From a virus, in IMG/VR virus record IMGVR_UViG_3300044823_000318, positions 1 through 25,731 of that record: 25,731 nucleotides of DNA. One strand, written 5' to 3'. Shown piece by piece: positions 729 through 25,347 of the stretch; positions within the stretch are counted from its first letter, which is position 1; each line of letters starts with the position of its first letter. The notes beneath the pieces were generated by a model that saw only the letters and a program-made list of their open reading frames with translations, was not told the DNA's origin and did not search any database. A program made the translations under genes and the position numbers.

Positions 729-760
729 TTATACGTAAGTGTTATATAAAAGGTTACAAA
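729..760 (-). promoter_or_regulatory. Class 2 phage promoter-like element, copy 1
   Basis: Read on the minus strand this is TTTGTAACCTTTT, nine variable bases, then TTACGTATAA. The same 13-mer and 10-mer with exactly nine bases between recur at 2524-2555 and 5005-5036. The TTTG end resembles the Bacteroidetes -33 box, while TTACGTATAA replaces the usual TAnnTTTG. It would drive the 469-723 and 1-463 genes. Confidence 0.8.
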
Positions 761-1126: not shown

Positions 1127-1136
1127 AGTATTTATA
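1127..1136 (+). promoter_or_regulatory. Class 3 (late-type) box AGTATTTATA
   Basis: AGTATTTATA ends 14 bases before ATG 1151, the same arrangement as in front of the minus-strand late units. It lies inside a longer open frame that begins at 1115, so it argues for ATG 1151 as the real start of the GIY-YIG gene and gives this mobile gene its own promoter. Confidence 0.65.
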
Positions 1137-1150
1137 TAAAAATTTCAATT

Positions 1151-2413: not shown

Positions 2414-2530
2414 ATGATTATGAAAAAAACGTATCGAATTATGAATTGGTTATATGATAATTCAACCATTTATTTGGCAAGAAAATATAATAAATTTAAA
2501 AATTTTAAATTAAATAACAATTTTTTGTAA
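2414..2530 (+). CDS. Possible 38-residue basic protein
   Basis: The only frame worth noting in the 200-base gap after the HD hydrolase. It starts at ATG 2414 (or ATG 2420, MKKTYRIMNW) and stops at TAA 2528-2530, inside the TTTGTAACC promoter box. The product is rich in Tyr, Asn and Lys (NWLYDNSTIYLARKYNKF), with a composition that looks like protein and not like random AT-rich sequence. It is unrecognised. The coding claim is weak because of its length. Confidence 0.35.
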   Translation: MIMKKTYRIMNWLYDNSTIYLARKYNKFKNFKLNNNFL

Positions 2531-2555
2531 CCTTTTCAATAAGATTTACGTATAA
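2524..2555 (+). promoter_or_regulatory. Class 2 phage promoter-like element, copy 2
   Basis: TTTGTAACCTTTT, nine bases, TTACGTATAA, ending 20 bases before ATG 2576. Spacing is identical to the copies at 729-760 (minus) and 5005-5036. It would drive the HAD, HNH and exonuclease genes that follow. Confidence 0.8.
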
Positions 2556-3347: not shown

Positions 3348-3868
3348 AAAGTAAACTTGTTTGTTGTGATATAGAAACAGACGGTCCATATATGCCAGAT
3401 TATTCAATTATTTGTTTTGCAGCAATTGTTGTTGAACCCTCATTATCTAAAACTTTTTATGGTAAAATGAGACCAATTTCAGATAAATGGAATCCAGAAG
3501 CATTAGCAATTAGTGGTTTTAGTCGTGAAGAACATTTAACTTTTGATGAACCAGAAAAGGTTATGAAAGAATTTGCCGAATGGTTAAAAATCAATTCTAA
3601 AGGGTCACCAGTTGGAATTTCAGATAATAATGGTTATGATTTTGGAGTATGTCTTAATTATTATTTTCATAAATTTTATGGTTCAAACCCACTGGGTTGG
3701 TCGTCAAGACGTATCGGAGATTTATTTTGTGGTGCTGAACATGATATGTATTATCGATGGAAAAAACATAGAATAACAATCCACAATCATGACTGTCGAT
3801 GTGATGTAAAAGGAAATGCTGAAGCATTATTGTATTTATCAAAAACTTACAACATTAAATTGCCATAA
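3344..3868 (+). CDS. DEDDh-family 3'-5' exonuclease (DnaQ-like)
   Basis: The 174-residue protein has all three exonuclease motifs of the RNase T/DnaQ superfamily. Exo I is CDIETDGP (D9, E11), Exo II is NNGYDFGVCLNYYF (D99), and Exo III is HNHDCRCDVKGNAEAL with H149 and D154 in the H-x4-D spacing of the DEDDh group. All acidic residues are present, so it should be active as a 3'-5' exonuclease on DNA or RNA. The size equals a single exonuclease domain, with no polymerase attached. It overlaps the HNH-like gene by 4 bases (ATGA) and is probably translated by coupling. Roles could be trimming of ssDNA ends, proofreading in trans or RNA turnover. It contrasts with the second exonuclease-fold protein at 8490-9316, whose catalytic residues are lost. 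Confidence 0.88.
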   Translation: MKSKLVCCDIETDGPYMPDYSIICFAAIVVEPSLSKTFYGKMRPISDKWNPEALAISGFSREEHLTFDEPEKVMKEFAEWLKINSKGSPVGISDNNGYDFGVCLNYYFHKFYGSNPLGWSSRRIGDLFCGAEHDMYYRWKKHRITIHNHDCRCDVKGNAEALLYLSKTYNIKLP

Positions 3869-3872
3869 AGGT

Positions 3873-4754
3873 ATGATAACACATCAAGAATTTTTAATCA
3901 AATTAATGAAAAATAATATTCACTACAAAAATAAAGAATTTGAAGTAATTGGTGAATATAAAAAAATGAAAGATTATGTTTTAATAAAAGATAATTTTGG
4001 ATTATTAAAAAACATACCTTATGACCTTCTACAAGGAAGAAAACCTACAGTACAATCTGCTTTAAATAAATATGAATATATTATAAATAAATTTAATTAT
4101 ATTCATTCTAACAAATATGTTTATAAAAAATTTCTTTATTTAAAAGAAACCACAGAATTTGAATTTATTTGTTCCAAACATGGTATAATAAAAACGTTGG
4201 TTAGGTATCATTTAAGACATGGATGCCCCAAATGTGGAACGGAGCAAGCAAAAAGTTGCATACAACCCAAATCATTAATTGATTTTATGAATGAATCTAA
4301 TGTTATACATAATAATAAATATAATTATTTTAATGCTATATATATTAATACTTCCACTAAGTTAATAATAACTTGTCCAATACATGGTGATTTTTTACAA
4401 ACACCCAATAAACATTTACAAGGTAGAGGTTGTAAAAAATGTAGTAGAGAAAATAATAATTTTATAAAATCGAATTGGATTTCCAAAGAGGGATTGGCAA
4501 CTTTTTATGTTTTAAAATGTTGGAATAAAAACGAAAATTTTTATAAATATGGCATTTGTACTGGAGAAATAGAAAATAGATATAATTCAAAAACAAAAAT
4601 GCCTTATAATTATGCAATAGAAATTAAAATACAAAATTTTGACAGGTCAATAATTTGGGAAACGGAAGAAAAATACAAGAAAAATAATTTATTAATTCAA
4701 TATAAACCTCAAATTTATTTTAAAGGTTCATCAGAATGTTTTATTAAAAATTGA
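3873..4754 (+). CDS. Zinc-ribbon / GIY-YIG homing endonuclease
   Basis: The likely start is ATG 3873, 4 bases after the exonuclease stop; an in-frame ATG at 3816 lies inside that gene. The 293 residues hold two tandem zinc-ribbon-like units of the form C-x2-HG-x(13-14)-H-x4-GC-x2-C: one with CSKHGII...HGCPKCG and one with CPIHGDF...RGCKKCS. These repeats are known in phage homing nucleases as DNA-binding modules. The C-terminus has FYVLKCWNKNENFYKYGIC (the GIY and YIG strands of the T5orf172-like subgroup), IENRYNS (catalytic Arg) and GSSECFI (metal-binding Glu). The same ribbon units occur in the 23607-24539 protein with a different nuclease. It carries no late box and should be co-transcribed with the upstream operon. 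Confidence 0.85.
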   Translation: MITHQEFLIKLMKNNIHYKNKEFEVIGEYKKMKDYVLIKDNFGLLKNIPYDLLQGRKPTVQSALNKYEYIINKFNYIHSNKYVYKKFLYLKETTEFEFICSKHGIIKTLVRYHLRHGCPKCGTEQAKSCIQPKSLIDFMNESNVIHNNKYNYFNAIYINTSTKLIITCPIHGDFLQTPNKHLQGRGCKKCSRENNNFIKSNWISKEGLATFYVLKCWNKNENFYKYGICTGEIENRYNSKTKMPYNYAIEIKIQNFDRSIIWETEEKYKKNNLLIQYKPQIYFKGSSECFIKN

Positions 4755-5004: not shown

Positions 5005-5036
5005 TTTGTAACCTTTTTAATGTTGTTTACGTATAA
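5005..5036 (+). promoter_or_regulatory. Class 2 phage promoter-like element, copy 3
   Basis: TTTGTAACCTTTT, nine bases, TTACGTATAA, ending 25 bases before ATG 5062. The frame of the next gene is open upstream to an ATG at 5020, but that codon lies inside this element, so 5062 is the start. Confidence 0.8.
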
Positions 5037-7293: not shown

Positions 7294-7303
7294 AGTATTT
7301 ATA
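7294..7303 (+). promoter_or_regulatory. Class 3 (late-type) box AGTATTTATA
   Basis: The box ends 10 bases before ATG 7314. It may drive the small frame 7314-7511 and the lytic transglycosylase behind it, in keeping with late lysis expression. Confidence 0.6.
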
Positions 7304-7313
7304 AAAAATAATA

Positions 7314-7511
7314 ATGATAAAAAATAAGAACATATCAGCAAATTTTAATTATACTCATTGGAATATTAACTCTCGAAAAGTTGATATTGTTCAAAATTTA
7401 GACGTACTAAGTTCTCTAATACCCAGAAAAACACACATTTCTGGGCATTTTCATTTAATGCAAGTTAAATTTACTAAAAATAAGACTTGTAAACAACTGA
7501 TTTTCAATTAA
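7314..7511 (+). CDS. Possible 65-residue protein, or a leader RNA
   Basis: This frame encodes a basic, Asn- and Ile-rich protein (NFNYTHWNINSRK, KTHISGHFHLMQVKF) that I do not recognise. The AGTATTTATA box at 7294 fits ATG 7314 as a start. Against a simple protein gene, an 8-bp hairpin (7422-7445) sits about 110 bases in, so the transcript could equally be a structured leader for the lytic transglycosylase gene 24 bases downstream, or a decayed gene. Confidence 0.45.
   Translation: MIKNKNISANFNYTHWNINSRKVDIVQNLDVLSSLIPRKTHISGHFHLMQVKFTKNKTCKQLIFN
7422..7450 (+). terminator. Hairpin inside the 7314-7511 frame
   Basis: CCCAGAAA (7422-7429) pairs with TTTCTGGG (7438-7445) over the loop AACACACA, followed by CATTTTCATTT. 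The T-tract is interrupted, so this is a weak terminator or another RNA structure ahead of the lytic transglycosylase gene. Confidence 0.4.
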
Positions 7512-11295: not shown

Positions 11296-11976
11296 TTAAA
11301 ATTGATTAAAATAATCTTTCTTCATTATATCTAAATCAATATTCCCGTTATATCCATTAATTTGTCCTTGCTCGGTAAATTGCCAAATTTTCCATTCAGT
11401 CCAACCAAGTGGAATTAAGGGTAGATTAATTTCAGGATTATTCAAATAAGCTGCTACCCATAGTGAATATGAACCAAATTCATGTGTTGTATTAATATCC
11501 AGAAAACTTTTGTATGAATATATTATAACTGAAATATTTTGTGCTTGTAGACTCTGAATAAATGTGGTAATGAATCTGTTCATATGATCTACTTTATTGT
11601 CCCAGACAATTGAATTGGCATATGCTTCAATATCTAATGAAAGTGGCAGATCGGCAGTAGGTAAAAAACCAATATGACTAAGGACATTTTGTACTTCTGC
11701 ATTTGCATCGTCTTCAGGAGAATTTACATCTCCGGGTCTGGCAAAATGATAATAACCAATTTTTACACCGTTCTTTTGAGCTGAAAGAACTCTTGATTTT
11801 ACATCATAAATATTATCTTCATGTCCAGTTGTACCTTCGGTAATCTTTACGAACGCAAATTGAACTCCTGCTGCTTTTGCAAGACTCCATGTAATGTCCT
11901 TTTGATATTTTGAACAGTCAAGTCCGAGAACGCAGTCTAAACTATCTAATCTCTGTTGTGATATTGTTGAAACCAT
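11296..11976 (-). CDS. GH25 lysozyme (N,O-diacetylmuramidase), endolysin
   Basis: The 226-residue protein is a single glycoside hydrolase family 25 domain that hydrolyses the MurNAc-GlcNAc bond. Family features in order: GLDCSKYQ at 18-25 (D20), FAFVKITEGTT at 40-50, GVKIGYYHFARPGD at about 70-83, PLSLDIEAYA with the catalytic D115-x-E117, and the C-terminal WKIWQFTEQGQ...GNIDLDI. No signal peptide or wall-binding repeat is present, so it would need a holin or other route to reach the wall. A class 3 box lies 14 bases upstream and a terminator precedes that, so it starts its own late unit. It works alongside the SLT enzyme at 7536. Confidence 0.93.
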   Translation of the reverse strand: MVSTISQQRLDSLDCVLGLDCSKYQKDITWSLAKAAGVQFAFVKITEGTTGHEDNIYDVKSRVLSAQKNGVKIGYYHFARPGDVNSPEDDANAEVQNVLSHIGFLPTADLPLSLDIEAYANSIVWDNKVDHMNRFITTFIQSLQAQNISVIIYSYKSFLDINTTHEFGSYSLWVAAYLNNPEINLPLIPLGWTEWKIWQFTEQGQINGYNGNIDLDIMKKDYFNQF

Positions 11977-11990
11977 AATCTTCTTTTTCC

Positions 11991-12000
11991 TATAAATACT
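11991..12000 (-). promoter_or_regulatory. Class 3 (late-type) box AGTATTTATA
   Basis: Perfect box 14 bases before ATG 11976 of the lysozyme gene, directly downstream of a hairpin terminator (12005-12038). Confidence 0.7.
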
Positions 12001-12435: not shown

Positions 12436-15400
12436 TTAAAATCCCCTATTTTTCTTAACGTTACTTGTATTGGTAAAAGAATCTGGTTTATAATTAGTTA
12501 AATGTTTCATTTTTTCAAACTGTTCATTTATTGGACTCTTTTTACCTATTTGTTCATTTTCATTCAAAATTTGGACAGGATTTTTTGTTGTAAATATATC
12601 TTTACCATTGGTGTAATATTTGCATTCAGATAAAATAGTTTCAACACTTTCTTTAACAACAACTTTTTTATCTTGTGATTTATTTTCATATTTATTACCA
12701 AATCCTGTAAAATCCAATTGAAATAATGGTTCAATGAATTTAGCATCATCAGAAACTAATTTAGTTTCGTTCAATCTGAAGTCCATGATATGACTTTTAC
12801 CAAGAGCATCGATGTATCTGCCAGTAACCATAGATTCTTTAATTCCTTTTCTTTCATTCCAACCAGATTTTTCTTTATCAAACTGTTTTTTATCAATACC
12901 AGTTTCTATTGGTTGAGTATCCTTGTTATACATAGGTGCTTTACCACGAAATTCAAGATTTGTCTGTCTTTGTTTGTAGTTTTTTTCGCCCATATCTTTT
13001 TTCATACGATCTTCAAACTTCTGATCAGGTTTGTTATCATAAACATAATCTTTTAAATTAAGTTTATATTTTTTAACTTCTTCAGCTTCTTCCTCAGTCA
13101 TATTACGTTTTGGTATTTCATCACCCTTTTCGTTTGTTGAATTACCAACATTTTTAAGTGTTTCATCACCTTTTGCATCAGTTGCTTTAATTTCTTCATT
13201 TTCAAGGTCTTCCCCTAATTTATTTGGATTTTCATCAACTTCGGTTTGCTGATCTTTCCACTGTAAATTTTTTTCAACATCGATAATTTCTTTTGTACCG
13301 CTATGTTGCAAATCTTTTTTAAAATTTGCTTTGTTTTCATCACCAAGACGATCTTTTAGTATCAAAGATGATGGTTTTTTATCTTCACTCATTTTCATTA
13401 ATTTTTTATGGTGAATTGAATATGCTTTCAATTCGTTATCTAATTCTTCTAATAATTTTATATCACTTTCGTTCATTGCACTACCACCACCAGTATTTTG
13501 CATGCCCATAGGAACGTTGCCACCTACAGTATTGGTTGGTATTGCTTTATTTGACATAGAATTTTGTTTGTCGCCAATAATTGACTCTTCAGTTTCATCA
13601 ACTTTTTTTACTTTTTCTGGCAAACCTTTATGTTTAGTTGAAGCAAAATCTTCAACATCTTCAGGACTTACATCTTTTGCAATTTTTTTCACTGCACCGC
13701 CAACTTTACTTGGACTTAATTCGCCTTTTTGTACAGCATGTGCCATACCGAATAATTGTTGCTGGCTTTTTGATTTTGCAACTTCTTTAATTTCTTTTGA
13801 TTCTTCCATTTGTCTAAGATTAGGATTATCTAATTTTTCTGTGTTAATATCTGTATTAATTATGTTAAGATCAGTAATTGGCATATTGCCTAAATCGCCA
13901 TATCCATCATCTGATTTCTTTTCAATATCTGTAATTTCTGGTGTTTGTTTACCATTACCAGCTTTTATTTTATCCCATACTCCAACTGGAGTTCTTGGTA
14001 TCGATTGAACAATACCATCTGTTTGCATTTGTGGAATTTTATTATCAGGATGTGGTATGAGTGTATGTGGTTCTGTCATATCCTGATGAAAAATTTCAAC
14101 ATCGCCATCTGGACTGTGTTGAAGGTCTTGTCCAAGAAATAACATCGTATTATCTTCAATTTCTCTTATTTTTCCATCACGTTCGGGTGATTGCTGTAAT
14201 TCACTAACGCCCAATCCCTTATTACTTTTTGAATGTGTTGCTTGGTATACTTGACCAAGTTTATTATTAAAATCTGAATTGTCTTCATTCAATGCCTGAA
14301 TATATTTTTCAAAACCTTCGGTTTCAATTAAGTAATTACTTTCCTGAATAATAGTACCACCTTTCCACTGTGGTTTTGTTTTTACAGGTGCTTCACCTTT
14401 GGGATGTATTAAATCACCTTTACCCCATGCGCTGGGTGTGTAATAAGGACCTGAACCACTTTCACCATTACCTGATACACCTTGACCGCCAGAAAGACCA
14501 CTACCACCACCAGTACCAGTTGTTTCATTTAAAATGTTACCTTCATCATCAATCAAATTAAAATTACCATGATCAGAAATAAACCAAGTATTGGGATACC
14601 ATTTATTTGATGTTTTCCATGTTTTTACTGCAGTAAGTGCATCAGTCATTTCTTGAAATTTACCAATTGGTTTTCCATTACAAGAAACATTATATTCTGA
14701 ACCATTTGATTCAATATAACAATCATCATCTTGAGGTTCATCTTCAGCTTCAACATCAACATTTTTTTGAGGTTCGCCACCAACCATTGTAAATTCTCCC
14801 ATTAATTTCTTTTTTTCTAAAGGAGCATTTTTTTCATAAATTTTTCTTTTTACCATACCTAATGGTGCACTAAATGCGCCACTACTACCAGCACCAGTCG
14901 TTTCTGTTATACCATTAACTACTTCAAGATTATACCCAAGACTTTCAAGTTCTGTTTTTAAACCTTGATATTCTTCAGGAGTGGCAGGACGACTTTCTTT
15001 TGCATATTCAGGAGAAGCAGATGAGTGCTGTCCCACATGTGAATATGCTGTTTTAAACTTACCATCATCATCATAATTTTCTTCTGGAAAATAAGCAAAT
15101 AAATCAGTATTTTTAGGGTCTCTTTCATTAACTAAAAATTCTACTTTTGTTAATGGTTCATTACTTTCAACAACTGCTGGTTTTAAGCCAGTTGGAGCAA
15201 GTTTTTCTGGTTTTTGAATATCGGTTTTATGTTGCATGGTTTTTTCTCCCGCCTTTTTTAATTGATTAATACCACTTTGATCTCTTCTTGTCTTTTCTTT
15301 AGGAATTGCTTGTTTATATTTTTGCAAATATTTCGGACTGTTGAGAACATAATCATTGAAAATTATATTTTGAATAGTTTCATTATAATGATAACCATAT

Positions 15401-15651
15401 TTTTCTTCACCATTTTCAGCCATTTCTTCGTATTTTGCAGATAATTTAGGGTCTGAAAATACCAATGCTTCCATTTTTGACAAACTGAAGATTTTTTTCT
15501 TCAAAGACTGTTCTGCTTCACTCAATAAACCATCAGTTTCATTCAATTTAAGACCTGCTTGAGTATTGATCTTTTTAGTATTGTTTTGAAACTTAACACC
15601 CTGTACTGTTGGTTTATTTAATGTCGGTTTAAATGTTTCTTCTTTTAACAT
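12436..15651 (-). CDS. Large disordered multi-segment protein, probable virion or prohead component
   Basis: A 1071-residue hydrophilic protein, mainly Lys/Glu/Asn/Gly with no membrane segment or enzyme motif. Recognisable pieces: residues about 310-375 form a compact domain with NGKPIGKFQEMTDAL, NKWYPNTWFISDHGN; Gly/Ser linkers preceded by ETTG occur near 250 (ITETTGAGSSGAFSAPLG) and 377-404; residues about 628-681 match a phage domain beginning KSQQQLFGMAHAVQKGE and ending KHKGLPEKV (DUF3008-like, from memory); residues near 960 read GRYIDALGKSHIMDFRLNE. Similar ETTG-GSSG-linker and KSQQQ elements occur in structural proteins of T4-like phages, hence the call. It heads its unit behind a class 3 box 19 bases upstream. 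An HNH endonuclease gene lies directly before it. Function is inferred from composition and context only. Confidence 0.75.
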   Translation of the reverse strand: MLKEETFKPTLNKPTVQGVKFQNNTKKINTQAGLKLNETDGLLSEAEQSLKKKIFSLSKMEALVFSDPKLSAKYEEMAENGEEKYGYHYNETIQNIIFNDYVLNSPKYLQKYKQAIPKEKTRRDQSGINQLKKAGEKTMQHKTDIQKPEKLAPTGLKPAVVESNEPLTKVEFLVNERDPKNTDLFAYFPEENYDDDGKFKTAYSHVGQHSSASPEYAKESRPATPEEYQGLKTELESLGYNLEVVNGITETTGAGSSGAFSAPLGMVKRKIYEKNAPLEKKKLMGEFTMVGGEPQKNVDVEAEDEPQDDDCYIESNGSEYNVSCNGKPIGKFQEMTDALTAVKTWKTSNKWYPNTWFISDHGNFNLIDDEGNILNETTGTGGGSGLSGGQGVSGNGESGSGPYYTPSAWGKGDLIHPKGEAPVKTKPQWKGGTIIQESNYLIETEGFEKYIQALNEDNSDFNNKLGQVYQATHSKSNKGLGVSELQQSPERDGKIREIEDNTMLFLGQDLQHSPDGDVEIFHQDMTEPHTLIPHPDNKIPQMQTDGIVQSIPRTPVGVWDKIKAGNGKQTPEITDIEKKSDDGYGDLGNMPITDLNIINTDINTEKLDNPNLRQMEESKEIKEVAKSKSQQQLFGMAHAVQKGELSPSKVGGAVKKIAKDVSPEDVEDFASTKHKGLPEKVKKVDETEESIIGDKQNSMSNKAIPTNTVGGNVPMGMQNTGGGSAMNESDIKLLEELDNELKAYSIHHKKLMKMSEDKKPSSLILKDRLGDENKANFKKDLQHSGTKEIIDVEKNLQWKDQQTEVDENPNKLGEDLENEEIKATDAKGDETLKNVGNSTNEKGDEIPKRNMTEEEAEEVKKYKLNLKDYVYDNKPDQKFEDRMKKDMGEKNYKQRQTNLEFRGKAPMYNKDTQPIETGIDKKQFDKEKSGWNERKGIKESMVTGRYIDALGKSHIMDFRLNETKLVSDDAKFIEPLFQLDFTGFGNKYENKSQDKKVVVKESVETILSECKYYTNGKDIFTTKNPVQILNENEQIGKKSPINEQFEKMKHLTNYKPDSFTNTSNVKKNRGF

Positions 15652-15670
15652 TATAATTAATTCTTTTCAA

Positions 15671-15680
15671 TATAAATACT
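15671..15680 (-). promoter_or_regulatory. Class 3 (late-type) box AGTATTTATA
   Basis: Perfect box 19 bases before ATG 15651 and just after the HNH gene stop; starts the large-protein unit. Confidence 0.65.
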
Positions 15681-15683
15681 AAT

Positions 15684-16337
15684 TTAAATTTTAAAATCAA
15701 TATTATCTCTTTTTATATGTCTATTGGTGTATGAGCACAATGGCTGTAAGTTTGTATAATGATTTAGTTTTAAAATTTCTTCTTCGGTTTTTGCTGAACA
15801 TAATGGAATGATGTGATCAATATCCCATGCAACATTTATTTCATTTGGTTCTCCATTCCAATTGCCATAATTACTCCAATTCATCCAACATTCAAATTTA
15901 GATTCTAAATAGATTTTAAATTCTTCAAAATTACAGCCAAGAATTTTTTCTGTTTTTAATACTTTTCTATATCCCTTTAATTTTATCGAACTCACTATTA
16001 AACATCTAATATTACATATTAGTTTATATAACGTATCGTATGATTTTCTATCATTTCTGTGTTTTACACTTTTTTTATTTATTTTTTCTTTATTGTTTAA
16101 ATAACGTATTTTTTTATGCTCAGAAATTTTTTCCTTATTATTTAAATAATACTCTTCAAATTTTTCTATGTTATCCAAATAATATTCTTTTTTATATTTT
16201 AAAATTTTTCCAGCATTGTTTTTATAATATTCTTTTTCCTTTTCAAGAATTTTTTCTTTATTATTCAAATAATAAATTCTTATTTTTTCTTTATTTTTTT
16301 CATAATATTCTTTATCGTATTTGCCTCTAATTTTCAT
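15684..16337 (-). CDS. HNH homing endonuclease with N-terminal YY-NNKEKI repeats
   Basis: The 217-residue protein has two parts. Residues 8-90 are six imperfect repeats of 11-15 residues around YYLNNKEKI, probably a helical DNA-binding array. Residues 170-210 are the HNH nuclease: WDIDHIIPL (D174, H175), LNHYTNLQPL (N196) and CSYTNRHIKR (N205, H207). A linker around 140-165 (GCNFEEFKIYLESKF...GNWNGEP) is typical of phage HNH proteins of this type. There is no class 3 box before ATG 16337; it lies 17 bases after the preceding small gene and is read from that unit. It sits between a small gene and the large structural gene, a usual place for a freestanding homing nuclease. Confidence 0.9.
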   Translation of the reverse strand: MKIRGKYDKEYYEKNKEKIRIYYLNNKEKILEKEKEYYKNNAGKILKYKKEYYLDNIEKFEEYYLNNKEKISEHKKIRYLNNKEKINKKSVKHRNDRKSYDTLYKLICNIRCLIVSSIKLKGYRKVLKTEKILGCNFEEFKIYLESKFECWMNWSNYGNWNGEPNEINVAWDIDHIIPLCSAKTEEEILKLNHYTNLQPLCSYTNRHIKRDNIDFKI

Positions 16338-16354
16338 AATTTCTTAATTATCAA

Positions 16355-16570
16355 TTATTTGATGTCCGTCTTCCAGAAATCACGTTTAGCCCAAAGCGTT
16401 TTAACTACTGCCTCCATCGCATTCTTAATAGTCCCAATCATTTCATCTCTGGTCTTACTATTGGTGCTATGAAGTATTCTTTTAATTTCTTTATCGAGAC
16501 TATCATTAACGAATTTTTTTATTTCATCATTAACAACCTTTTCAACATCAATTTTTTCCATGTTATTCAT
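16355..16570 (-). CDS. Small helical protein of unknown function
   Basis: A 71-residue protein if started at ATG 16570 (MNNMEK), or 68 from ATG 16561. The frame is open upstream to ATG 16615, but the class 3 box at 16579-16588 falls inside that extension, so the upstream start is rejected. The protein is amphipathic-helical and charged (VEKVVNDEIKKFVNDSLDKE), with a central TRDEMIGTIKNAMEAVV. I do not recognise it. It opens the unit that continues with the HNH gene. Confidence 0.7.
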   Translation of the reverse strand: MNNMEKIDVEKVVNDEIKKFVNDSLDKEIKRILHSTNSKTRDEMIGTIKNAMEAVVKTLWAKRDFWKTDIK

Positions 16571-16578
16571 TCGTTTAT

Positions 16579-16588
16579 TATAAATACT
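16579..16588 (-). promoter_or_regulatory. Class 3 (late-type) box AGTATTTATA
   Basis: Perfect box 8 bases before ATG 16570 and 17 before ATG 16561. A terminator hairpin (16605-16634) lies immediately upstream. Confidence 0.65.
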
Positions 16589-16604
16589 TAGATGGTGCAA
16601 AAAG

Positions 16605-16634
16605 AAAAAACGCATAATAAGTACATTATGCGTT
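16605..16634 (-). terminator. Intrinsic terminator after the 16673-17455 gene
   Basis: On the minus strand AACGCATAAT (16634-16625) pairs perfectly with ATTATGCGTT (16618-16609) around a six-base loop and runs into a T-tract. It lies 38 bases beyond the stop of the spanin-like gene. Confidence 0.85.
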
Positions 16635-16672: not shown

Positions 16673-17455
16673 TTACTTTGCTAAAAAATGATATAGTACT
16701 GCGCCACCAACACCACCAGCACCAAACCATATTAATTTACCACCACTTTTAGTGAAAAAATTACCTATTTTTTGCCAAAATGTTGGTTTAAGTGCTGGTA
16801 ATATTATTTCAGGAATAATATAACTATCAATATTAATTATTCTAAAATAATCATTAGTATTTGTTACGCTAAATGCAACAGGATAACCTACCTTTTTATC
16901 GTTCTTCCAATGAAATTCAATAAATTGTGTATTTGGTAGTGTTAAATATTGAAATGTCAATGTAGGATTTAATTTAAGTACAGGCATAACATTACCAATC
17001 CTAATACCATATTTAAGATTTTTTGTTGAATCGCTAAATGTTATGTTCTTATTTATAGTATCGACAAGGGGTTTAGTTAGATTTTTTAGTGAATCAATAA
17101 TTACATTTGATTCAATTAACGCTGCTGCAATTATTGTATTTTGTTTGTTTGCTGCTGCAACTCTTGCCAATAAATCTTTTTGCTCTGTTGTTAATTGACC
17201 ATTAATTTTGTTAAGATTTTTTAATGTTTCTTGTAACGTAAGTTTTTCTGTAACCCATTCACCTTGCTTGTTTTGATAAACAGTTGCAGTATCTAACAGT
17301 GCATTTTTCAATTTAGTTGCTAAATCAAGTTCTGATTTGAGATTAGCTACTTTCTTTTGATAGAGATACCATCCGCCAGCAACTCCTAATACTAACAATA
17401 CAATAACTATTATTGTTGTCAGATTTAATTTTATTTGTAATGTACTTCCACTCAT
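16673..17455 (-). CDS. Membrane-anchored coiled-coil protein, spanin-like
   Basis: A 260-residue protein with an N-terminal membrane helix (IIVIVLLVLGVAGGWYLY, about 15-32), a long coiled coil (35-130), a beta-rich region (NVMPVLKLNPTLTFQYLTL), and a C-terminal hydrophobic segment (LIWFGAGGVGGAVLYHFLAK). The N-terminal anchor followed by a periplasmic coiled coil resembles inner-membrane spanin subunits (Rz type), which join the membranes at the last step of lysis in Gram-negative hosts. The extra beta region and second hydrophobic end are unusual for Rz and would allow one protein to reach both membranes; this is inference. It has its own class 3 box and its own terminator, so it is a single-gene late unit. 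Confidence 0.7.
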   Translation of the reverse strand: MSGSTLQIKLNLTTIIVIVLLVLGVAGGWYLYQKKVANLKSELDLATKLKNALLDTATVYQNKQGEWVTEKLTLQETLKNLNKINGQLTTEQKDLLARVAAANKQNTIIAAALIESNVIIDSLKNLTKPLVDTINKNITFSDSTKNLKYGIRIGNVMPVLKLNPTLTFQYLTLPNTQFIEFHWKNDKKVGYPVAFSVTNTNDYFRIINIDSYIIPEIILPALKPTFWQKIGNFFTKSGGKLIWFGAGGVGGAVLYHFLAK

Positions 17456-17472
17456 GGCTTATAAAATTTTAT

Positions 17473-17482
17473 AATAAATACT
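17473..17482 (-). promoter_or_regulatory. Class 3 (late-type) box, variant AGTATTTATT
   Basis: One mismatch from the consensus (last A to T), 17 bases before ATG 17455, downstream of the terminator at 17501-17532. Confidence 0.6.
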
Positions 17483-17540: not shown

Positions 17541-18062
17541 TTATTGTTCTGCAGATTTTTGAATTACACTATCAATCCAATATTCATAAAATTTATCAAA
17601 ATACGATTCAACTTTTTTCATTATTTCATCGTTCTTTGGGTCATCTTTATTATATCCCTCTAAAGGATTAAATTCAACACCATTTGTATTTTCATCAGGT
17701 GTTACCTTATAAACGAATTGTAATACTCCATTAATTGTGCCACCCCAAAAAACATATTTATCGGTTACTTCAAGTTCAATAAAATCAATGCTAATATCAT
17801 AACCAGTAGGAAATGAATCTTTAAATTTTTGTTCCTCATTTGCCTGATCTTGATCATTTTTTTTATTTACAGGTTTTGCTTCAGCAGTTTCTGGCTGATC
17901 TGTCTCTGGTTGAACATCTTCATTTAATTTACGTGTGATTTTAAGCATATCACGCATTGATAATTCGTGCTTTGTTGTTCCTTTGCTCTCATTTACATAT
18001 GGTTCACCACGCATTCTGCGGAGAAAAATTCTTATTTGACTTGGGGTTGTTTTATCGTTCAT
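17541..18062 (-). CDS. Protein of unknown function, possible virion component
   Basis: A 173-residue protein. The basic N-terminus (SQIRIFLRRMRGEPYV) and MRDMLKITRKLNE are followed by a disordered acidic linker (EDVQPETDQPETAEAKPV) and then a folded C-terminal half (YDISIDFIELEV, YVFWGGTINGVLQFVYKV). No family recognised. The basic head plus LNE-type linker resembles the N-terminus of prohead or core proteins that are trimmed in T4-like phages, but this is only a resemblance. It is a single-gene unit with class 3 box and terminator. Confidence 0.75.
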   Translation of the reverse strand: MNDKTTPSQIRIFLRRMRGEPYVNESKGTTKHELSMRDMLKITRKLNEDVQPETDQPETAEAKPVNKKNDQDQANEEQKFKDSFPTGYDISIDFIELEVTDKYVFWGGTINGVLQFVYKVTPDENTNGVEFNPLEGYNKDDPKNDEIMKKVESYFDKFYEYWIDSVIQKSAEQ

Positions 18063-18075
18063 ACTTTCTATTTTA

Positions 18076-18085
18076 TATAAATACT
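18076..18085 (-). promoter_or_regulatory. Class 3 (late-type) box AGTATTTATA
   Basis: Perfect box 13 bases before ATG 18062, 9 bases after the stop of the amidase-like gene. Confidence 0.7.
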
Positions 18086-19149: not shown

Positions 19150-20052
19150 TTATTTTTTAAAAAATTTATCTAACCATTTATTTTTTAAAGATGCTTCATA
19201 CGCTCCCTTATATTTTTTCTTAAAATCAAATCTCCCTTTGCAATTTAATGATGCTTCATAACATTTTTGTTCTGTCCAATATATTCTTCCATTAATCATA
19301 TGTTTACAAATATCATCAAGCCAACCATTTTTATATGCTGCTGAAAATTCATGTATAAAATTTTTTTTAAATTCTTTTCTCGTTCTGCATGACAATGCTT
19401 TTTCTTTACATAATTCTTTGGTATGTTTAATTTTAGGACCTTTATTAAGTTTTAAAATTAAATTAATCTCATTATGCCAATCATTTTTTAATGATGATGA
19501 ATATGCACCTCGATATTTTTTTTGAAATTCACTTCTCGTTTTGCATTTTTTTGCTGCTTCAATACATCTTTCTTTAGTCCAAATTAATGTAGTACCACCA
19601 ATACCACCAGTTTTTGCAACATTTAATATATTCCAACCATCATTTTTATATTTTTTAACATATTCACCTTCCAATTTAGAAGCCTTTTCAACATTAATAT
19701 AATCAGTTAATTGCTTTCTTATTGGAACATATCCTGTTTTTTTGATATGTTTTGTTACTTGGTCAGTATTACGGCAATCTCTACCATTTTGTCTTTCAAT
19801 AATATTGTGCGTTATACCAACATAAACACATTTATCTTCAATAAATTCATATGAATATACGCATCTTTTGTATTTGCTACCATATAATATCATATGTGTT
19901 GAAATTGTTTTCATCCAACCATTTTTGTATGCAATAGTATTTGCTGATGGTGATTTTTCTTTAAATTCTTTTTTAGTTAAAAATTTTAATGCTTCAATAG
20001 CACAATTATTATATGTCCAGTAACCATCTGGTTTTCTTACCTCAATTTCCAT
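19150..20052 (-). CDS. GIY-YIG homing endonuclease with four W-x2-E/N-x-C helical repeats
   Basis: The 300-residue protein combines a GIY-YIG nuclease (about 65-150: VYSYEFIEDKCVYVGIT, IIERQNGR with the Arg, KLEGEYVKKYKNDGWNILN with the Glu) with four copies of a 43-residue repeat at about 12-54, 158-200, 210-252 and 259-300. The repeat reads roughly WT-x2-x-C-x3-A-x2-C-x-(T)R-x-EF-x-K...AY-x2-xKN-x-W. Such repeats in phage homing nucleases are taken as DNA-recognition modules. One copy precedes the nuclease and three follow. ATG 20052 overlaps the end of the upstream 70-residue gene by 16 bases. It separates that gene from dCMP deaminase and was probably inserted there. Confidence 0.88.
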   Translation of the reverse strand: MEIEVRKPDGYWTYNNCAIEALKFLTKKEFKEKSPSANTIAYKNGWMKTISTHMILYGSKYKRCVYSYEFIEDKCVYVGITHNIIERQNGRDCRNTDQVTKHIKKTGYVPIRKQLTDYINVEKASKLEGEYVKKYKNDGWNILNVAKTGGIGGTTLIWTKERCIEAAKKCKTRSEFQKKYRGAYSSSLKNDWHNEINLILKLNKGPKIKHTKELCKEKALSCRTRKEFKKNFIHEFSAAYKNGWLDDICKHMINGRIYWTEQKCYEASLNCKGRFDFKKKYKGAYEASLKNKWLDKFFKK

Positions 20053-20249
20053 AGTCGGTTTTTAGTTAATTTTTTTGCATCTTCGATTAATTTTTCCAAA
20101 TCTTCTCTCTGATCATCTTCAGCAAAGATATCATCAACATCCATTTTTGCTAATTTATCAACTAGTTTCAATGAATCTTTGAGAATCACTGCTTTTTCGT
20201 GATCTTCAGCGTATTGTTTTCGCTGTTCTTCACTAATTTGTGTTGCCAT
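20037..20249 (-). CDS. Small acidic helical protein
   Basis: A 70-residue protein, acidic and alpha-helical (AEDHEKAVILKDSLKLVDKL, FAEDDQREDLEKLIEDAKK), with a basic end (NRLWKLR). Not recognised. Its last codons overlap the first codons of the GIY-YIG gene by 16 bases, so the insertion of that gene may have changed its C-terminus. It is first in the operon behind the class 3 box at 20263. Confidence 0.72.
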   Translation of the reverse strand: MATQISEEQRKQYAEDHEKAVILKDSLKLVDKLAKMDVDDIFAEDDQREDLEKLIEDAKKLTKNRLWKLR

Positions 20250-20262
20250 AATTACTGTTTAT

Positions 20263-20272
20263 TATAAATACT
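20263..20272 (-). promoter_or_regulatory. Class 3 (late-type) box AGTATTTATA
   Basis: Perfect box 13 bases before ATG 20249. Its upstream end lies within 10 bases of, and partly reaches, the stop end of the SbcDC gene (20275). Confidence 0.7.
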
Positions 20273-20274
20273 AA

Positions 20275-23200
20275 TTATTCAATAGTAAGTGATGATATAC
20301 CTTCTTCATCCAATTGAACATTAATCAGGTAATCTGGATTAATTTCTTCTTTAGGTTCAATAACCAGAACCTTTCTCATTCCTGCTTTTATTAGCTGAAG
20401 TATTTCAATAAATTCTTCAACACTGATGTTAATCAATTTACCCATTACTTCATCAAGTAAGAATATTGTTGGTTTTGCTTTTACATTAATTTGATTCAAT
20501 GCAAACTTCATTACCACGCTGGAGAATGTTCTTTCTTTACCAGATGTACTAATACAATCAACGATAGCAGTTGGTCTGTTATTATATACCAGTTTGGGAC
20601 GCAAATCTTCCTGATCAAGCCAAACCTTAAATGGTGCAACAGATAATATATCCTGCAAAGTTATGTTGATCTTTGGTAATATATAATTTGCAAGCATCTG
20701 TCTTGGTATGCCATCTCTGTGTACACATTTTTTATATAGACCCATAACAGTATCTTGATATTCCTGTGCTTTAAATGTAACAACTAATAATTCATTGTTC
20801 TTAATCTTTATCTGTTTTTCACCAACACTTGTTTTTTTAATTAAAACATTTTCTCTTTTTTCAGTTTCTTCACCTTCTAGTTCAGTCAATTTTAACTTAG
20901 CTGCTGTAATACCTTTTTCAATCTTCTGATTTTCTACAATTTGTTTCAAACTATTGTCGTAATTATCAATCTTTTGCTGAAGTAATGTGATTTTAAGTTC
21001 TTCATTCTGAATCTTTGTTGGTATTTGATCTAATTCTGTTTGAAGTTCTTTACGTTTTTCAACATCATTCTTTTCATTCGTAAGTGTACCAATTTTTTTA
21101 AGTGTTTCTTCCATTTCAAGAGAAGCAAGACGAATTTCTTCATTAATTTTTGCAATTGTTTTGTCTTCATCAATAATATTAAGTTCATGTACCACTTTAT
21201 CTAAATGTTCTTTCGTATTAATCTTTTCAGCAAGAGGAAACATTTGATCTTCTTTCAGTTTAACTGTTTTGAAAATGTGATCAATATGTTCTTGTTTATT
21301 AATTACCTGTCCGCACTGACTACAAATTTTACTATTTTTTAGATCAACAATTTCTTTTTTTAATTTAGCACCCTCTTCTTTTAATCTAAAAATATCACCA
21401 TTAATAATTTCAATTGCATGATCTTCGATTGTTTTTGTTTGTTCATGGGTTTTAATAAGCATTTTTTGCTGATATTCATTTGTTTTATGAGCATCTTTCT
21501 TTTCGATAAACATTTTTAGTTTTTCAGCATCATATGTTTCTTTCAATGGGACGATACTTTGCTCTATAACCGCTTTTCGTGCGTTTAGCTTATTGATCTC
21601 TTTGTTGTGAATACCAATAGTCTCTTTTGTACTATCTACGTCCAGAGTGTAAATTTCGGGGTCTATTTTAAATAATTTCTTTGTAAGGTCTTCAACATAT
21701 TTTCTACCTTTAGCAATTCTTTCCTGAACATCTGGTAATTTAATCGTTTCAATTTCTTTTATTTCAGTTTCAAGTGTTTCAATTTCATGTCCTAATATTT
21801 GGTTTTGAAGTGTGATACCATCAATATCACAAAATACTCTAAGTTTTTCATTAACTCTCTTCTCATATATTTTATAACCAGTCAATTTTTTATCAAAAAT
21901 ATCCAGTCCACTATCAAATAAAAGTGAATCGATAAATACTGCCATATCATTAGATAATATTCTATTAAGAGTGTCAGATGTCGTCATAACAATACGCATA
22001 AAATTATCATAAGTACCTATGATGCTTTCTATCTTCTTCTGTGTGAGTTTTCTACGATCTTCATCAAGTTTCTCTAATGAAGTATTGTCATTCATTTCTT
22101 CATCAGGATTATTAAGCAGATAATAATTCAATGTAGTTGGAGCACCGATAATATCACCTGATTTAGATTTTTTAATTTCAGTTTTTTTCTTAATACCATA
22201 ATATTCACCATTAGCTTCGATTACAATATAACCTTCGCAATAATCAGCATTGTTTCTGTTATTAACAAAACGTGAATCACCGTATAACTTACGACTTTCT
22301 GTTTCCAGTGTTTTGCCAAAAAGAATGTATGATATGAGTTTCATTATGGTTGTTTTTCCAGCAGTATTTTCTCCAGTAATCTGAAATAAACCATCCATAT
22401 TTCTCCAATCGATTTCTAATTCAGCATATGACATGAAATTCTTACCACCAAACTTAATTACATTCCATTCAATAGTTTGATCTTCAGTAGTGTCAATTAA
22501 TCCAAGTATTTCTTCATCAAGTGTAATTATATCTTCAATTAGTTGTGAATCAGTACCAATTTTTGCAAGATATTCTCTAAATATTTCATGCTGAACATCT
22601 TTATCTGTGATATTCTGCAAAGTAATATTTTCATTTATATCAATTTTTTCATTTTCAAGAAATTCATTCTTATGTGAAATAATTATATCATTATATTTGC
22701 TTTTAATATATTCAGCCAGTTTTCTTTCATTTTCTTTAATTCTTGTTTGTGGTAATGTACCCCAGATAAACCTGACCTTCATATATTTTGTTGGATTCGG
22801 GATTTCAAAATCCAAATCATTAAAATCTGTATATTGTGTAATTCGAATGTTTTTAAATGAATGTTCATTTTCAATTGGGATTTCTTGAACTGTTTTTGTA
22901 TTAAGATGCCATAAAAGATAGCCGTGAAACGCATCATCTCCCTCTGTAATATCTTGAGAAATTAATGACCCACAAAATGCTTTAGTTTTATTTTTATCAA
23001 GATATTGTTGTTTATGAATGTGAGCAAAAAATGATAAATCACCTTTAAAATCACCTATTTTATAAAATGATTTACTTTTCATTTCAAAACCAGTTGTGGA
23101 TTTGCAACCATTTACCGATTCATGAAATAGATCAATGTATGTTTTATTTGGGTCTTTTTCTATAAGAAATTTTTTACCCTCTTTTGTTTTCCAAACATTA

Positions 23201-23601
23201 TTTAGTTCGCCATAATGCCAAACCGCCCATACAACATTATCATCATTATAAAAACCAGTTTTATCGTAATAAATAACATTAGGATTATTTAATGTCTTTA
23301 CAATTGCTTTAACGGAATCAACTCTTTTGGAATTAGATTTTTGCATGTCATGGTTTCCACGTGTTATTCTTACTGGTGCAATTTTACTCAGTTCATTGAG
23401 TAAATTATGTGCCATAATTAATTGTTCTGATTGAAGATTTAAATTATCATGAACAAAGTCTCCAACAATTACAATTCTGTTAGGTTTTTTTTCTTTTAAT
23501 GATTCTATAAGATTTTTAAATACTTTTTCATATTCTTCGTTACGTGTTGGTATTTTACGAATGTGAATATCACCAGTGTGGGCAATTGTTTGTATATTCA
23601 T
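20275..23601 (-). CDS. Fused Mre11-Rad50 (SbcD-SbcC; T4 gp47-gp46 type) nuclease-ATPase
   Basis: One 1108-residue chain carries both halves of the double-strand-break repair complex. Residues 1-330 are the Mre11/SbcD phosphodiesterase: GDIHI (D11, H13), VIVGDFVHD (D48), TRGNHD (N83, H84, D85), FFAHIH (H194, H196). Residues 380-1108 are the Rad50/SbcC ATPase: Walker A GENTAGKTT at 410-418, long coiled-coil arms, a zinc hook CSQCG at C760 and C763, a signature-like TSGKER at 1019-1024, and Walker B TIFLLDE with D1050-E1051. Every motif is present. In T4 and in bacteria these are separate genes (47/46, sbcD/sbcC). It should process ends for recombination-dependent replication. It starts 5 bases after the zinc-ribbon nuclease and is probably transcribed with it from the host-type promoter at 24555. 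Confidence 0.93.
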   Translation of the reverse strand: MNIQTIAHTGDIHIRKIPTRNEEYEKVFKNLIESLKEKKPNRIVIVGDFVHDNLNLQSEQLIMAHNLLNELSKIAPVRITRGNHDMQKSNSKRVDSVKAIVKTLNNPNVIYYDKTGFYNDDNVVWAVWHYGELNNVWKTKEGKKFLIEKDPNKTYIDLFHESVNGCKSTTGFEMKSKSFYKIGDFKGDLSFFAHIHKQQYLDKNKTKAFCGSLISQDITEGDDAFHGYLLWHLNTKTVQEIPIENEHSFKNIRITQYTDFNDLDFEIPNPTKYMKVRFIWGTLPQTRIKENERKLAEYIKSKYNDIIISHKNEFLENEKIDINENITLQNITDKDVQHEIFREYLAKIGTDSQLIEDIITLDEEILGLIDTTEDQTIEWNVIKFGGKNFMSYAELEIDWRNMDGLFQITGENTAGKTTIMKLISYILFGKTLETESRKLYGDSRFVNNRNNADYCEGYIVIEANGEYYGIKKKTEIKKSKSGDIIGAPTTLNYYLLNNPDEEMNDNTSLEKLDEDRRKLTQKKIESIIGTYDNFMRIVMTTSDTLNRILSNDMAVFIDSLLFDSGLDIFDKKLTGYKIYEKRVNEKLRVFCDIDGITLQNQILGHEIETLETEIKEIETIKLPDVQERIAKGRKYVEDLTKKLFKIDPEIYTLDVDSTKETIGIHNKEINKLNARKAVIEQSIVPLKETYDAEKLKMFIEKKDAHKTNEYQQKMLIKTHEQTKTIEDHAIEIINGDIFRLKEEGAKLKKEIVDLKNSKICSQCGQVINKQEHIDHIFKTVKLKEDQMFPLAEKINTKEHLDKVVHELNIIDEDKTIAKINEEIRLASLEMEETLKKIGTLTNEKNDVEKRKELQTELDQIPTKIQNEELKITLLQQKIDNYDNSLKQIVENQKIEKGITAAKLKLTELEGEETEKRENVLIKKTSVGEKQIKIKNNELLVVTFKAQEYQDTVMGLYKKCVHRDGIPRQMLANYILPKINITLQDILSVAPFKVWLDQEDLRPKLVYNNRPTAIVDCISTSGKERTFSSVVMKFALNQINVKAKPTIFLLDEVMGKLINISVEEFIEILQLIKAGMRKVLVIEPKEEINPDYLINVQLDEEGISSLTIE

Positions 23602-23606
23602 ATATT

Positions 23607-24539
23607 TTATAAATTTAAATTATTAATTAAAATCTTTTCAACATTTTTCATTATATATGAAATTCTAATTAATTTAATGTTTTGATTTTTAGCATAATCA
23701 TTTTTTAAATCATCATTATGTTTTAACATTTTAAACGCTAATTCAGCTCTTTCGTCTGAAATACCGTGAAAATTAATTGGCTTTTCATGTTGTATACCAT
23801 CATATTCAATAAGTATGTTGTGTTCAGGTAAATAAAAATCAAAGGGTAAAGATATTTTATTCTTACAGTTTTTGAATATTTTTTCTTGAACAAATTTAAT
23901 ATTATTTAATTTTAAAATGTTACCAATTTTTATTTCTCCTTTTGATGAGGTACAAATAGGACAGCCTTTACCACATAAATGATTGCGTGGTAATTGTTTA
24001 AAAATTCCATGTTTTTTACAAATAATTTTTATTTTAGTTTTTGCATTAACATAATTTACTAATTTATAATTATATAAATAATTATGTATAATATTTGCAT
24101 TTTTATTAAATTCATTACTTGTAAATCTATATTTTTTCACACATTTCGAACAACCACTACCACTTAAATGAGATTGGGGTATTTGTTCAAATATACCATG
24201 AATTGGACAAATAATTTTTATTTTAGTTTTTGTATCAATATAACTAACCAACGAATAATCATATTTATTATTATGAATTTTATTTGCTTTATTTATGAAA
24301 TTATTAGTTGTTAAAAAATGATGTTGTCTGTTAATTTCAATACCACAGATAGGACAGCCACGATTATGAACATGATTATCTGGTGTTTGTTTAAAAACTC
24401 CATGTACAGGACACAATATTTTTATTTTAGTTTTATTATTAATATATTCGGCTAATATATAGTCATATTTATCATCATGAACATTATTTGCTTTTTTAAT
24501 AAAATCCGATAAATGGGCAATACGACTAATTTTATTCAT
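23607..24539 (-). CDS. Zinc-ribbon / PD-(D/E)XK homing endonuclease
   Basis: The 310-residue protein has three tandem zinc-ribbon-like units of about 65 residues, each with C-x2-HG-x-F-x-Q-x-P-x3-H-x4-GC-x2-C (CPVHGVFKQTPDNH, CPIHGIFEQIPQSH, CKKHGIFKQLPRNH), interleaved with a YDY-LV-YINxKTKIKI strand pattern. The C-terminal 110 residues are a Vsr-like PD-(D/E)XK nuclease: GEIKIGNIL, LPFDFYLPEHNILIEYDGIQH with the Asp and Glu in the expected place, and QNIKLIRISY. The ribbon units are the same type as in the GIY-YIG protein at 3873. It lies between the sigma factor and SbcDC genes and has its own host-type promoter, so it may also transcribe SbcDC. Confidence 0.88.
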   Translation of the reverse strand: MNKISRIAHLSDFIKKANNVHDDKYDYILAEYINNKTKIKILCPVHGVFKQTPDNHVHNRGCPICGIEINRQHHFLTTNNFINKANKIHNNKYDYSLVSYIDTKTKIKIICPIHGIFEQIPQSHLSGSGCSKCVKKYRFTSNEFNKNANIIHNYLYNYKLVNYVNAKTKIKIICKKHGIFKQLPRNHLCGKGCPICTSSKGEIKIGNILKLNNIKFVQEKIFKNCKNKISLPFDFYLPEHNILIEYDGIQHEKPINFHGISDERAELAFKMLKHNDDLKNDYAKNQNIKLIRISYIMKNVEKILINNLNL

Positions 24540-24615: not shown

Positions 24616-25281
24616 TTATTCTAATATATCTGCGTTTTGTTTTTTTAATTTGGTCTTAATGTAATTTATTCGATTACTAACAGTACTGCTGGTAAGATTG
24701 AATTCTTTACCGATTTCACAATGACTATATCCTTGTATATATTTCATATTTAATAAGCTATAATCAACTGGAGATATTTGCGATGATAAATAAGATACAG
24801 TATTACAATTTTCAAATTCTGTATTATTACAAACAGTAAACGAACAACTATTTGATAACGGATTGTCATTATTTGCACTTAATGAAATACCATTACCAGC
24901 TACCCAAGCAGTTGGTTCTCCATTAAATCTTAAATTTTGAGCACCATTATCACTGATGCTTATACCGGAATTATTAAACGTTAATGTAAATGAAGTTGAA
25001 TTTTTTCTCCATGTATCAGTTATAAAATGTTTTGTAATAACCAATACCCATGTTTTAACACTGCCTTTTTCTGAATCAATTGATTTAAGATTTTCAAAAA
25101 CTTTAATCAATATTTCTGATACATAATCATCAACGTCTTCTGGTTTTTGTTTGGGAAAATTACTTCGTATATAATCATTAACTATTTTTTGATATTTTTT
25201 AAAAAATATTTTTTCTGCCTGATGATTTCCATTCACAATGTTTTGAATTAAAATCACGTCTTCCGTATCCTTTCCTATCAT
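24616..25281 (-). CDS. Phage-encoded ECF-type sigma factor
   Basis: The 221-residue protein has the two domains of group 4 sigma-70 factors. Sigma-2 spans about residues 12-92 (EKIFFKKYQKIVNDYI, DVDDYVSEILIKVFENL, GSVKTWVLVITKHFITDTWRK), the part that binds core polymerase and the -10 region. Sigma-4 spans about 165-215 (LSSQISPVDYSLLNMKYI, YSHCEIGKEFNLTSSTVSNRI), with a clear helix-turn-helix. The linker is long, about 70 residues, and rich in Asn/Ser/Thr/Gly with three cysteines (NSCSFTVCNN, FENCN), unlike ordinary ECF linkers. By analogy with T4 gp55 it may direct late transcription; the class 3 box found throughout this window is the natural candidate target. A near-match (AATATTTATA) lies before its own start, hinting at autoregulation. 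Confidence 0.88.
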   Translation of the reverse strand: MIGKDTEDVILIQNIVNGNHQAEKIFFKKYQKIVNDYIRSNFPKQKPEDVDDYVSEILIKVFENLKSIDSEKGSVKTWVLVITKHFITDTWRKNSTSFTLTFNNSGISISDNGAQNLRFNGEPTAWVAGNGISLSANNDNPLSNSCSFTVCNNTEFENCNTVSYLSSQISPVDYSLLNMKYIQGYSHCEIGKEFNLTSSTVSNRINYIKTKLKKQNADILE

Positions 25282-25287
25282 AAATCA

Positions 25288-25297
25288 TATAAATATT
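25288..25297 (-). promoter_or_regulatory. Class 3-like box, variant AATATTTATA
   Basis: One mismatch from AGTATTTATA, only 6 bases before ATG 25281 of the sigma gene and 8 bases from a terminator hairpin upstream. Spacing is shorter than at other units. Confidence 0.4.
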
Positions 25298-25305
25298 TTA
25301 TACAT

Positions 25306-25347
25306 AAGAAATTTGCATCAAAACAAAGGCTTTAATGCAAATTTCTT
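25306..25347 (-). terminator. Intergenic 13-bp hairpin, probable terminator of the 25361 gene
   Basis: AAGAAATTTGCAT (25306-25318) and ATGCAAATTTCTT (25335-25347) are perfect inverted repeats with a 16-base loop. On the minus strand it begins 13 bases after the stop of the upstream gene. The T-tract after it is poor on the minus strand. Confidence 0.6.

Follow-up and report, generated by a model that had tools for sequence, protein, structure and literature searches.

The window analysed here is a 25,731-nucleotide stretch of viral DNA (IMG/VR record IMGVR_UViG_3300044823_000318). It has no near match among annotated phages, and its relatives are present in viral contigs. It contains a gene for a sigma-like protein and, ahead of its genes, a short recurring sequence, the class 3 box. 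The original prediction connected the two and proposed that the phage protein, an ECF sigma factor, is the reader of the box. Is the protein a genuine sigma factor, and is the box a promoter? If so, does this sigma read that box, or has it another target among the promoters of these phages? The gene and the parts of its product are:

24616–25281, minus strand: gene for the ECF-type sigma factor of the phage, 221 aa (ORF, profiles, structure model)
24997–25263, minus strand: sigma domain 2, the proposed reader of the -10-like box (residues 7–95; Pfam region 2, pLDDT)
24811–24996, minus strand: disordered Asn/Ser/Thr-rich linker (residues 96–157; pLDDT 31–42, hypervariable in length and sequence)
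24637–24810, minus strand: sigma domain 4, the most conserved part (residues 158–215; Pfam, AlphaFold)
24619–24636, minus strand: C-terminal tail NADILE, a weak lead only

The product is a genuine ECF-type sigma factor, consisting of sigma2, a disordered linker and sigma4. The clear sigma-2 and sigma-4 regions of the original prediction were recovered by Pfam (Sigma70_r2, E 1e-9; Sigma70_r4, E 1.5e-5), and the NCBIfam sigma70-ECF profile (TIGR02937) scores the protein at 59.5 bits, above its cut-off of 42.9. An AlphaFold model built on a 42-sequence alignment agrees, with a pLDDT of about 90 for sigma2 (about residues 4–95) and of 83–90 for sigma4 (159–215). The best Foldseek matches of this model include SigW (5wuq) and SigE (1or7), at probability 1.00. 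The layout is that of ECF factors (sigma70 group 4), with sigma2 and sigma4 only and with sigma1.1 and sigma3 absent. Across the 42 homologues the mean majority-residue identity is 0.65 in sigma2, 0.77 in sigma4 and 0.26 in the linker, and the C-terminal tail has a family form of about (N/S)PEIIYE. No peptide common to the C-termini of the sigma and the DNA polymerase was seen. A search of genome_contigs confirmed no relatives in bacterial genomes, and the family is apparently viral only. No anti-sigma gene was recognised near the sigma gene. A contig usually has a single main sigma that can be detected; a second sigma gene, more distant, is found in the large contigs G008, G019, G021, G029, G030, G038 and G043.

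The region between the domains had been described as an unusual Cys/Asn-rich linker. In the window its 62 residues include 12 Asn, 9 Ser, 6 Thr and 5 Gly, with Cys 146 and Cys 151 inside it and Cys 159 at its edge, and the model has no confident structure for residues 97–158 (pLDDT 31–42). Among the 42 homologues, 49% of linker residues are Asn, Ser or Thr and 10% are charged; the figures for the domains are 24% and 27%. Linker length ranges from 23 to 80 residues, with a family median of about 50. The composition is kept across homologues, and the sequence and the positions and spacing of the cysteines are not. The Asn/Ser-rich character is therefore a trait of the whole family and the set of three cysteines is not, and the linker is not supported as a special feature. 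Because length and sequence vary and the cysteines are unconserved, the linker is an uncharged disordered spacer and not a hidden domain.

The promoter motif was rebuilt independently of the list in the original prediction. Across the window and six relative contigs, AGTATTTAT is the most enriched upstream 9-mer, with 129 upstream copies versus 6.5 expected. The class 3 box has a direction and stands at the heads of genes: on the coding strand, 86 of 101 copies of AGTATTTATA precede a start by no more than 60 nt, and the reverse complement does so in 2 of 101. The whole element is AGTATTTAT-N4-AA, and in 323 non-redundant boxes the offsets +13 and +14 are A in 95% and 93% of cases. The distance from box to start codon is mostly 11–25 nt; the distance from box to AA is the same for an ATG 8 nt off and for one 45 nt off. 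The AA is thus phase-locked to the box and not to the start codon, which argues for a promoter pattern rather than a translation signal. Judged by the AA mark, position 1 of the box tolerates any base, and position 2 needs G or C. Of 29 cases of ACTATTTAT, 28 have the mark; with A or T at position 2 its frequency lies much nearer to the background. No -35 consensus was found upstream of the 323 boxes, where the sequence is no more than weakly T-rich, between -16 and -11 relative to the box. The box is invariant across the sigma-bearing clade. From its sequence, the class 3 element looks like a -10 box with a start site pattern and without a -35 consensus.

In the window itself AGTATTTAT occurs 11 times (1.1 expected) and AGTATTTAT-N4-AA occurs 8 times (0.17 expected), a number reached by none of 100 shuffles. 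The genome-wide single-box motif is real, and sharper than it was originally written. The eight predicted class 3 promoters are:

1127–1141, plus strand: before a GIY-YIG-like ORF whose likely true start is near 1151 (sequence)
7294–7308, plus strand: before ORF 7314–7511 (box match)
11986–12000, minus strand: before the endolysin gene 11296–11976 (conserved in G004, G005 and G007)
15666–15680, minus strand: before the 1071-aa ORF 12436–15651, DUF3008 (box match, Pfam, orthologues)
16574–16588, minus strand: inside ORF 16355–16615, before the likely true start ATGGAAAAAATT (box match)
17468–17482, minus strand: before ORF 16673–17455 (box match)
18071–18085, minus strand: before ORF 17541–18062 (box match)
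20258–20272, minus strand: before ORF 20037–20249 (box match)

What kinds of genes carry the box? Orthologues were compared in up to seven diverged genomes. Class 3 elements stand before the tail sheath gene, the baseplate wedge operon, the genes for a tail-like 442-aa protein and a 471-aa protein, the endolysin gene and the RuvC-like resolvase operon. The structure model of the 471-aa protein is poor (pLDDT 45). In the same comparison the helicase, DNA polymerase, primase-sigma and SbcCD genes mostly have host-type TTTG-N-TAnnTTTG promoters, and UvsX operons have both a class 3 box and a host-type promoter. There are two exceptions: the helicase/polymerase operon of G008 traces to class 3, and the baseplate orthologue of G004 gave a class 1 match, probably by chance. 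As far as the limited annotation reaches, class 3 heads late genes, and the replication genes and the sigma operon use host sigma-A-type promoters. In unannotated phage sequence the box is a predictor of late genes and of true start codons.

The box also goes with the sigma. In 20 sigma-bearing contigs it is present in 417 copies versus 109 for reversed-pattern controls; in SbcCD relatives that lack the sigma there are 22 copies versus 49 for the controls. Boxes were present at every locus where the sigma was found, down to about 28% sigma identity. They were at or near control levels in the SbcCD relatives that lack a close sigma, which are contigs of 119, 235, 167, 77 and 65 kb, LR756501 and Tenacibaculum phage PTm1. 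None of 531 host genes was preceded by a class 3 element. Phages with the motif and no sigma homologue would speak against the proposed pairing, and such cases were looked for among the related phages. Three loci (L165, L168 and L173) have boxes and no sigma beside SbcCD, and on each of these contigs a sigma is present elsewhere. The proposal that the sigma reads the class 3 box survived this search and is supported by the co-occurrence, that is, by comparison between genomes. The relatives without a close sigma all fall into a single clade, set on a long branch, so the co-occurrence amounts to about one evolutionary change and not many. One of these relatives, the 735-kb phage LR756501, has no enrichment of AGTATTTAT and has another upstream box, AATATATAG, about 10–20 nt before many starts; a distant sigma region 2 is encoded elsewhere in its genome.

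The window also has promoters of another kind, class 1:

729–759, minus strand: class 1 promoter, TTGTAACCTTTT-N12-CGTATAA, host rpoD-type ECF promoter and probably not the target of the sigma (host matches)
2525–2555, plus strand: class 1 promoter (TTGTAACCTTTT-N12-CGTATAA match)
5006–5036, plus strand: class 1 promoter (TTGTAACCTTTT-N12-CGTATAA match)

Could the phage sigma read class 1, leaving class 3 to something else? The class 1 form, TGTAAC-N-CGTATAAT, is of the textbook ECF type, with the AAC -35 and CGTA -10 typical of ECF sigma factors, and the phage protein, with its intact sigma4, belongs to the ECF sigmas. Yet four sigma-bearing contigs, of 203, 365, 247 and 340 kb, have almost no class 1 promoters or none at all. 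Moreover, a scan of bacterial genomes found class 1, among the matches listed, almost only in Bacteroidota. Most of the host matches listed lie 17–55 nt before the primary sigma gene, identified as RpoD, and a host ECF factor presumably reads them. In F. psychrophilum, ECF promoters with a CGT -10 box precede the genes of band-7 proteins, among others (PMC9723704). Class 1 looks like a host ECF promoter, mostly that of the host rpoD, which phages have copied. Since it matches a host promoter no phage sigma is needed for it, and we consider class 1 a decidedly unlikely target of the sigma. The 334-kb contig G008 has, at 245598–268878, a series of class 1-like promoters (GAAAC-N-CGTATAA) at close intervals.

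The remaining alternatives leave class 1 aside. Class 3 might be a late promoter whose reader is some other protein of the phage, either a second sigma or a gp55-like factor that went unrecognised, while the sigma described here serves other promoters. Many phage genes are unannotated and some contigs do have a second sigma, but the SbcCD-linked sigma is present in every box-enriched contig tested and the second sigmas in some only, and we regard this alternative as unlikely. That AGTATTTAT is no promoter, and acts instead as a signal for translation or RNA stability, is highly improbable. It does lie near start codons, and Bacteroidota do not depend on Shine-Dalgarno pairing (PMC9723704). Against this, the lock of the AA to the box holds over ATG distances of 8–45 nt, and the box heads groups of genes and is absent from host genes. 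An equally poor prospect is a functional role for the Asn/Cys-rich linker, as an insertion that acts, for example, as a redox or metal switch. Cysteine is richer in the linkers (3.5%) than in the domains (1.2%), and at least one is present in 33 of the 42 homologues. The number per linker varies from 0 to 5, however, with none in 9 of the 42, neither position nor spacing is conserved, and the region is predicted to be disordered; the switch was rejected on conservation. The reading that we prefer, and hold to be probable on the sequence comparisons, is that the protein is the late sigma of a large Bacteroidota phage family, with contigs up to about 370 kb, and reads single-box promoters with the host polymerase. 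In its favour, the class 3 box has the core GTAT in common with the class 1 -10, and CGTA is known as a -10 core of the ECF type. Among the points against it, sigma4 is intact and highly conserved, which would not be expected of a factor that reads no -35 sequence, and some large contigs have a second sigma gene. The invariance of the box, the single evolutionary change behind the co-occurrence and the missing operon context of the sigma gene in the window count on the same side.

How is the sigma itself expressed? The features around its gene are:

25289–25297, minus strand: near-match box AATATTTAT before the sigma gene, judged non-functional as a class 3 promoter (position 2 not G/C; no AA at +13/+14)
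25306–25347, minus strand: perfect hairpin of 19 bp separating the sigma gene from the gene upstream of it, terminator-like (z -7.1; shared with L002)
23607–24539, minus strand: HNH/treble-clef homing-endonuclease-like gene between the sigma gene and SbcCD (phrog_559, E 7.5e-76)
20275–23601, minus strand: SbcD-SbcC fusion like T4 gp47-gp46, the conserved downstream neighbour of the sigma gene (profiles, relatives)

A near-match box before the sigma gene had been noted originally and taken to create a positive feedback loop. The sequence AATATTTAT does exist, and it lacks both diagnostic features: its position 2 is neither G nor C, and the AA at the fixed distance is absent. In L002, the closest relative, the site reads AAATATTTGTA, so the near-match is not kept. 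Because AATATTTAT is the only box-like sequence upstream of the gene in the window, positive feedback is unsupported there. For the most part, the relatives have a sigma ORF that overlaps a primase gene at the latter's end, and the operon of this primase is headed, 4–8 nt before its first ORF, by a host-type (sigma-A-type) promoter and not by the box. The feedback loop was rejected on both counts. With such a promoter at the head of the primase-sigma operon, the sigma is expected to be made before the late genes, from host sigma-A. In the window and in L002 the primase is absent from the sigma locus, and the usual operon context is missing. The hairpin upstream of the sigma gene is terminator-like, and would be a terminator or a processing site. 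Downstream, SbcD and SbcC are fused in one 1108-aa protein, whose closest homologue in the annotated collection (38% identity) is in the 735-kb phage LR756501. Further homing-endonuclease-like or endonuclease-like ORFs in the window are 3816–4754, 15684–16337 and 19150–20052.

Most probably, then, the phage sigma redirects the host RNA polymerase to the single box before late genes; a search of 15 contigs found no phage RNA polymerase of the multisubunit type. In the proposed sequence of events, to judge from the relatives, the sigma would be made from the primase-sigma operon at a host sigma-A-type promoter, alongside replication and recombination genes, and would bind the host core RNA polymerase. 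Its sigma2 would read the single -10-like box AGTATTTAT, at about -13 to -5, and transcription would start on the AA four bases past the box. Sigma4 would sit on the beta flap with little or no demand for a -35, a demand that would go no further than T-richness around -27. The disordered linker would span the distance between the two domains. The tail, baseplate, lysis and other late genes would in this way be switched on by the sigma.

If this is true, the gene-expression programme of these Bacteroidota phages, including genomes of about 370 kb, becomes readable. It would consist of host sigma-A promoters, for the sigma and the replication genes, an rpoD-type ECF promoter copied from the host, and a single-box promoter that the phage sigma uses for the late genes. 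For T4 it would offer an example from nature that bears on an unanswered question, why the late sigma is divided between gp55 and gp33.

The phage sigma resembles ECF factors of the SigW, SigE and SigH types (TIGR02937) in its two-domain architecture, its fold and the -10 core GTA. It differs from them in its long and disordered linker and in being apparently viral only. Its presumed class 3 target lacks the AAC -35 of common ECF targets, which is a common trait and no strict criterion. The PHROG 1740 sigmas of crAss-like phages and Agrobacterium phage Atu_ph04 belong to the same profile family (E 1e-15 to 1e-18); they are distant, very weak matches, with 22–34% identity to the phage sigma. 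In function, and by description, the protein can be set beside SPO1 gp28 and gp34, the sigma factors with which that phage takes the host core polymerase through a timed cascade, at other boxes. A survey of jumbo phages describes phage sigma factors closer to cellular RpoD, and its text does not mention ECF factors (PMC7824862). Neither the class 3 motif nor a phage ECF late sigma was found in the literature that was searched.

The closest parallel is with T4, whose late box is TATAAATA and differs from the class 3 box. In T4 late transcription gp55 serves the -10-like box, and gp33 is a sigma4 mimic on the beta flap that reads no DNA (PMC2988020). T4 late promoters have no -35 and are activated by the gp45 clamp (PMC2988020). 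The family described here likewise has single-box late promoters without a -35, and its sigma gene lies upstream of SbcD-SbcC in the same direction, as in the T4 order 55-47-46; use of the host core polymerase is presumed here as well. There is also a loose likeness between the short acidic-hydrophobic C-termini (SLDFLYE in gp55, about PEIIYE in the phage family). The comparison with T4 made in the original prediction holds in the sense of 'works like', and does not extend to homology with gp55. The sigma did not match phrog_234 and had an hhalign probability of 0.3% with T4 gp55, and its membership of the gp55 family was rejected on these grounds. The profile PF02916 finds the gp45 clamp of T4 and finds none of this type in 12 relatives, in which a diverged clamp is possible. 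Another difference is that T4 divides between gp55 and a separate gp33 what is here one phage protein with a real, conserved sigma4. Geiduschek and Kassavetis ask why a fused late-transcription sigma is nonexistent or has not been found, and artificial gp55-gp33 fusions work when the connector has the right length (PMC2988020). It is a tentative idea, to which we give somewhat less than even chances, that the phage sigma is a natural one-piece late sigma. An ECF-derived protein would then do the work of both gp55 and gp33, with the linker as connector and possibly with coupling to replication, through a clamp if there is one, via the C-terminus. By analogy, the phage sigma may work like the T4 system while belonging to the ECF family, as its one-piece version.
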